A stretch of DNA of 64,000 bases from Haloferax massiliensis (GTDB taxonomy: Archaea > Halobacteriota > Halobacteria > Halobacteriales > Haloferacaceae), in contig NZ_CSTE01000002.1 of NCBI RefSeq assembly GCF_001368915.1, forward strand, positions 224,248 through 288,247. The letters are read 5' to 3'. The notes below the pieces were generated by a model that was not told the DNA's origin, ran no database searches, and saw nothing but the letters and a program-made list of their open reading frames with translations. A program made the translations under genes and the position numbers. This document shows positions 1,037-1,111 of the stretch, piece after piece; positions within the stretch are counted from its first letter, which is position 1; every line of letters starts with the position of its first letter.

Positions 1037-1111
1037 GCTCGGTTGGTGTAGTCCGGCCAATCATCTTGGCCTTTCGAGCCGAGGACAGGGGTTCAAATCC
1101 CCTACCGAGCA
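1037..1111 (+). tRNA. tRNA-Glu (anticodon TTC)
   Basis: A 75-nt cloverleaf can be drawn by hand. The acceptor arm GCTCGGT pairs with ACCGAGC, followed by discriminator A. The anticodon stem TTGGC/GCCGA encloses the loop CTTTCGA, giving anticodon TTC. The T arm is AGGGG-TTCAAAT-CCCCT. The gene is intact and is the left attachment site of the large element; its 3' half (1070-1111) is repeated with four changes at 55711-55752. The T stem here differs from that displaced copy by two compensatory base pairs, so the present 3' half probably came from the element. Confidence 0.95.
1070..1111 (+). repeat. attL: left attachment site of the integrated element
   Basis: These 42 nt, from the anticodon loop to the discriminator base of tRNA-Glu, are the left member of a direct repeat; the right member is 55711-55752. 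An integrase gene begins 187 bp downstream. Integration into the 3' half of a tRNA gene, with restoration of the tRNA by element-borne sequence, is the standard arrangement for archaeal tyrosine-recombinase elements. Confidence 0.85.

Follow-up and report, generated by a model that had tools for sequence, protein, structure and literature searches.

The window analysed here, a stretch of 64,000 nucleotides from Haloferax massiliensis, contains an intact tRNA-Glu(TTC) gene at positions 1037..1111 of the forward strand, on which ARAGORN and Rfam agree, and a displaced 3′ half of tRNA-Glu at 55711..55752 in the same orientation. An island of 54.6 kb (1112..55710) separates the two, with a G+C content mostly about 0.54–0.62, compared with 0.67–0.69 to its right. 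A spacer of 186 bp lies between the 3′ end of the intact tRNA and a forward-strand gene (1298..2401) for a tyrosine integrase of 367 amino acids (Pfam PF00589, E=1.5e-15), in which the catalytic residues R216, R320, H342, and Y351 are conserved; this integrase is most likely the enzyme behind the insertion, and may be active at present. An SSV-type (suicidal) integrase element was also considered and rejected, the integrase reading frame being whole and lying outside the tRNA repeat. The right end of the element (55473..55710) is conserved beside the displaced half in one close relative, G001, where an 87% match extends into the host flank.

Among the genes of the island are an Eco57I/N6-type DNA methyltransferase gene (6828..9695, forward), a run of Mre11-like, Rad50-like, NurA, and HerA genes (10654..18346, forward), a C5 cytosine DNA methyltransferase gene (36582..37703, reverse) beside an HhH-GPD glycosylase-like gene (35942–36571), a gene for a UvrD-like helicase with a PD-(D/E)XK nuclease (45625..49152, forward), DUF6339 genes, one transposase gene, and two further tyrosine integrase genes on the reverse strand—that is, a second one at 5461..6582 (Pfam PF00589) and a third, short one at 50634..51251. 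Beside the latter, at 50452–50610, an iteron-like repeat with CGTTTCCGCACTGG motifs was observed in three tandem copies spaced at about 53 bp. The block from Mre11 to HerA seems to move separately, since it is, at 10685–18346, 95.8% identical to a block on the Haloferax alexandrinus plasmid NZ_CP106970.1; when plasmid records were searched with two stretches of the island, none covered most of either, and only pieces matched. Because it holds three integrase genes and one transposase, the island may be composite. Of the element of ~54.6 kb with a precise border proposed in the initial annotation, the outer borders are firm, whereas the interior may be one element or several.

The two 3′ halves (1070–1111 and 55711–55752) align over 42 nt without a gap and with 38 identities, the displaced half being the window's best match to the tRNA apart from the tRNA gene itself (E about 1e-11). 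The block common to both copies begins at tRNA position 34, in the anticodon loop, and the four mismatches fall at tRNA positions 51, 52, 66, and 67, the T-stem reading AGGGG/CCCCT in the intact tRNA and CAGGG/CCCTG in the displaced half, with an A-T pair replaced by C-G and a G-C pair by A-T. This ungapped alignment bears out the initial claim that the four differences amount to two compensatory T-stem pairs. Four random differences in 42 positions would land precisely on two pairs of the T-stem with a chance of 9e-5, or of about 2e-5 if both pairs are still required to pair. Folding energies were calculated as −32.0 kcal/mol for the present tRNA and −32.2 kcal/mol for the rebuilt host version; as a means of telling alleles from chimeras they were dropped, one chimera folding at −33.7 kcal/mol by way of a slipped stem, so that the case for compensation rests on the canonical T-stem pairs.

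Comparison of the window's genome (G000) with 14 other Haloferax species showed that nine of these have the T-stem AGGGG and five have CAGGG, with no intermediate seen among the 15 Haloferax genomes. Of the seven closest relatives, which are ~94–95% identical over the 8-kb left flank, five carry CAGGG (G001, G002, G003, G007, and G014) and two AGGGG (G006 and G011). AGGGG, also present in the more distant Haloferax species and in two outgroup genera, is the commoner version in Haloferax and probably the ancestral one. The 'different tRNA lineage' to which the 3′ half had been ascribed is a second allele of this very tRNA-Glu(TTC).

An empty site was found in a close relative, G007. The left flank runs unbroken up to the tRNA in the close relatives, and to the right of 55752 the trailer is 95% identical to that of G007 over 131 bp, where it is joined directly to a CAGGG/CCCTG tRNA, exactly the pre-insertion arrangement that had been predicted; this trailer was not found at that place in any other close relative. 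When the sequence up to 1069 was joined in silico to that from 55711 onward, the product aligned with G007 across 606 bp, ungapped and at 96.7%, with zero mismatches in the tRNA, whereas the same join with the AGGGG half kept gave four extra mismatches. The gap-free join and the common trailer indicate that the displaced CAGGG half is the old host half. An empty site with AGGGG had been expected to speak against the rebuilding of the tRNA. Such sites do occur, in G006 and other Haloferax, but the reading stands, because the genus is polymorphic and the trailer haplotype alone—that of G007 only—discriminates. At the AGGGG tRNA of G006 there is no such element, and in G011 the site is taken up by other sequence of about 1 kb; an empty and an occupied site can therefore not be told apart by the allele alone. 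Two further genomes (G103 and G153) were left out as independent support for the empty site because an integrase homologue adjoins their tRNA.

Within the genus, a full-length copy of the integrase at the tRNA-Glu site was found in the window's genome only; in the order as a whole, 166 of 392 genomes contain homologues. Among the 29 closest homologues examined (L154–L182), 25 follow a tRNA-Glu (TTC or CTC) on its 3′ side and one follows a tRNA-Pro in this way; for the others, no tRNA was called inside the fetched stretch. The closest homologue (82%) belongs to G198, which has the left end of the element in common with the window (trailer TTCCATTCTACCGCC vs TACCATTCTACCGCC) and the tRNA-Glu of which carries CAGGG together with a different acceptor strand, ATCGAGC, fitting its own host. 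In G198 (contig C1), the integrase-linked tRNA-Glu (488137) and the displaced half (2745456) are 2.26 Mb apart and in opposite orientation, which suggests an inversion after integration. In G015, G016, G022, G027, G031, and G041, the tRNA-Glu(TTC) matches were observed to be interrupted at position 40/41, the two pieces lying ~30–67 bp apart; the interruption resembles an intron of the anticodon loop, which forms the core of the integration site. When IMG/VR was searched at the level of a peptide pattern, no relative was found for the integrase. In the free virus genomes HSTV-2 and HCTV-6, which encode related integrases, a tRNA-Leu 3′ half sits just upstream of the integrase gene. The half adjoining the integrase is by this token the element's own, and the half at 1070..1111, with T-stem AGGGG/CCCCT, is placed like the attP of these related viruses and is thus element-borne. 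Together with the empty site of G007, this supports the initial view that the host tRNA-Glu was rebuilt with a 3′ half encoded by the element.

We consider it highly probable that an integrase exchanged the 3′ half of tRNA-Glu, bringing an AGGGG attP into a CAGGG host. The tyrosine integrase at the left end would have recombined the attP of the element—that is, a 42-nt tRNA-Glu 3′ half with T-stem AGGGG/CCCCT—with a host tRNA-Glu(TTC) gene having T-stem CAGGG/CCCTG. The crossover would fall between tRNA positions 34 and 50, within the 17-nt stretch at 1070..1086 (forward) that extends from the start of the repeat in the anticodon loop to the start of the T-stem, where position 51 is the first difference; the anticodon loop is its most likely place. 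The host promoter and 5′ part would thereby have been joined to the element's 3′ half, giving the present gene at 1037..1111 (attL), and the host's own 3′ half moved 54.6 kb downstream to 55711..55752 (attR). Since both strands of the foreign T-stem lie inside the swapped half, it would arrive already paired and travel as a block, the compensatory changes thus arising in one recombination step, whereas the 3′ acceptor strand, whose partner is in the host 5′ part, must match and is conserved. Of this course of events, the two borders, the empty site, the exchange of alleles, and the association of the integrase family with tRNA-Glu are shown.

Differences of this kind were found to recur in a sample of 33 intact/displaced tRNA pairs from haloarchaea, from which one more pair was left out as unparsable. 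The T-stem differs in six (G000, G001, G248, G284, G163, and G246): both partners are changed in nine base pairs, and a single partner in a tenth, at position 53 in the decayed copy of G001. Across the 33 pairs, differences occupy 19 of 330 T-stem cells vs 2 of 264 in the acceptor strand, the Fisher value of 0.001 being indicative only, owing to shared ancestry and repeated sampling; this suggests that an element-borne half may differ in the T-stem but hardly in the acceptor strand. For three pairs, the displaced half was found to have an identical counterpart within an intact tRNA of congeners (G320 and G375 for G248, G207 for G246, and G211 for G163), with no integrase homologue beside these intact tRNAs among the matches listed; for G284, no congener carrying the displaced version was found. 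G001 is a mirror case, with a CAGGG tRNA and an AGGGG-like displaced half that follows a right end akin to the window's. Because the left part of the element is missing from G001 and the trailer after its CAGGG tRNA is host-like, a second event must have occurred there.

G001 also provides part of the argument for a crossover beyond position 67, in the 3′ acceptor end, by which AGGGG would be the host's own and the element would have brought in the CAGGG half at 55711: an AGGGG-like displaced copy with a similar trailer adjoins a related right end in G001, and AGGGG is common in Haloferax. However, G007 combines CAGGG with the same 131-bp trailer, G000 and G001 have related right ends with different halves after them, which fits a half derived from the host, the virus half beside the integrase gene is element-borne, and many displaced halves among the pairs start at position 34, all of which make an acceptor-end crossover very improbable. 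Compensatory changes in T-stems do happen over long times, and one copy could have drifted by two successive compensated changes after integration. The displaced half, however, is a non-gene without folding constraint and yet is identical to the intact genes of relatives; complete tRNAs of either version are present in the genus, with no intermediate seen; and the pattern is repeated in G248, G246, and G163, so that such drift has hardly any probability.

Gene conversion with T-arm copies downstream—echo palindromes or older remnants—would require no integrase, and copies matching the tRNA allele do lie 60–155 bp downstream in many haloarchaea. These echo copies cannot supply positions 51–52, since GAGG stands in for the 5′ strand of the T-stem; moreover, the island and its integrase lie exactly between the two halves, and the empty site is confirmed here. 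For this locus, gene conversion is as improbable as drift, but it may account for G001 or for the allele difference of G006 and G011, a full element being absent there. Integrase-driven exchange of the 3′ half is accordingly the reading adopted for the window.

Both the site and the architecture resemble, by description only, the islands reported in the Haloquadratum walsbyi genome paper of 2011, in which an HVO_2815A-like integrase lies beside a complete tRNA-Glu with a truncated copy of this tRNA 5–48 kb downstream (PMC3119063); unlike these, the present element is 54.6 kb long and has other cargo, and the 2011 section on such islands does not mention a T-stem swap. Integrative elements in tRNA genes of Haloferax gibbonsii LR2-5, described in 2021, likewise have end repeats of the tRNA 3′ part and a XerC/D-like integrase at the end adjoining the complete tRNA, but are other elements, and no allele difference is noted in their description (PMC7921747). 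Rebuilt tRNAs inheriting attP mismatches are described for SSV viruses and for a Caldiarchaeum tRNA-Thr intron, where the element's tRNA part replaced that of the host, leaving its own letters or intron (PMC3293823; reviewed in PMC8371274); the present case differs in its covarying T-stem, in having an empty site, and in its repetition in several genera. Islander also uses a rebuilt tRNA gene plus a displaced fragment as the mark of island ends, but maps islands and does not have allele exchange as its subject (PMC4383910). Haloarchaeal tRNA-Glu islands of such an arrangement and the inheritance of attP mismatches are already known; what is new is the covariation of the stem, the confirmation of an empty site, and the recurrence of the pattern.

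More broadly, it appears somewhat likely that integrative elements of this integrase family carry alleles of the tRNA-Glu T-arm from one haloarchaeal species to another. If so, the 3′ and 5′ halves of these tRNA genes have separate histories, and single recombination events lie behind many T-stem changes that look compensatory. Covariation tends to be taken as a sign of gradual compensatory change under structural constraint, but can also arise by one-step exchange of a block; in this and several other cases, mobile DNA is seen to remodel the stem of a tRNA at one stroke. Furthermore, this island of a model genus, in which genes for DNA modification and DNA processing abound, now has exact borders, and its pre-insertion state is seen directly.

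A third, shorter T-arm copy, overlooked in the initial annotation, lies at 55824–55851 and belongs to an 'echo' palindrome in the host trailer (55790..55851, forward), which is present in G007 too and is thus part of the empty site rather than of the element. Many haloarchaeal tRNA genes were observed to be followed, ~60–155 bp downstream, by such a palindrome, the right arm of which repeats that tRNA from the T-loop to the 3′ end, often letter for letter, and the left arm of which is an inverted T-arm, with a variable hairpin between the arms, often CAGGGAGC..GCGACTGAGG. The pattern GATTTGAA-N22-50-GTTCAAATC occurs in 32 of 39 genomes, against 0 for the reversed control, and all 12 of the fetched loci with this pattern (L262–L273) adjoin a tRNA. 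In published notes, tRNA remnants adjoining full copies are mentioned; the literature searched yielded no description of the echo palindrome. Echo palindromes are possibly small att-flanked mobile units, and are perhaps worth separate study. Further examples were seen at L074, L075, L078, L080, and L081, and in Haloferax sp. Q22 (L032, 11103–11361) two tandem units of ~129 bp of the palindrome follow tRNA-Glu.
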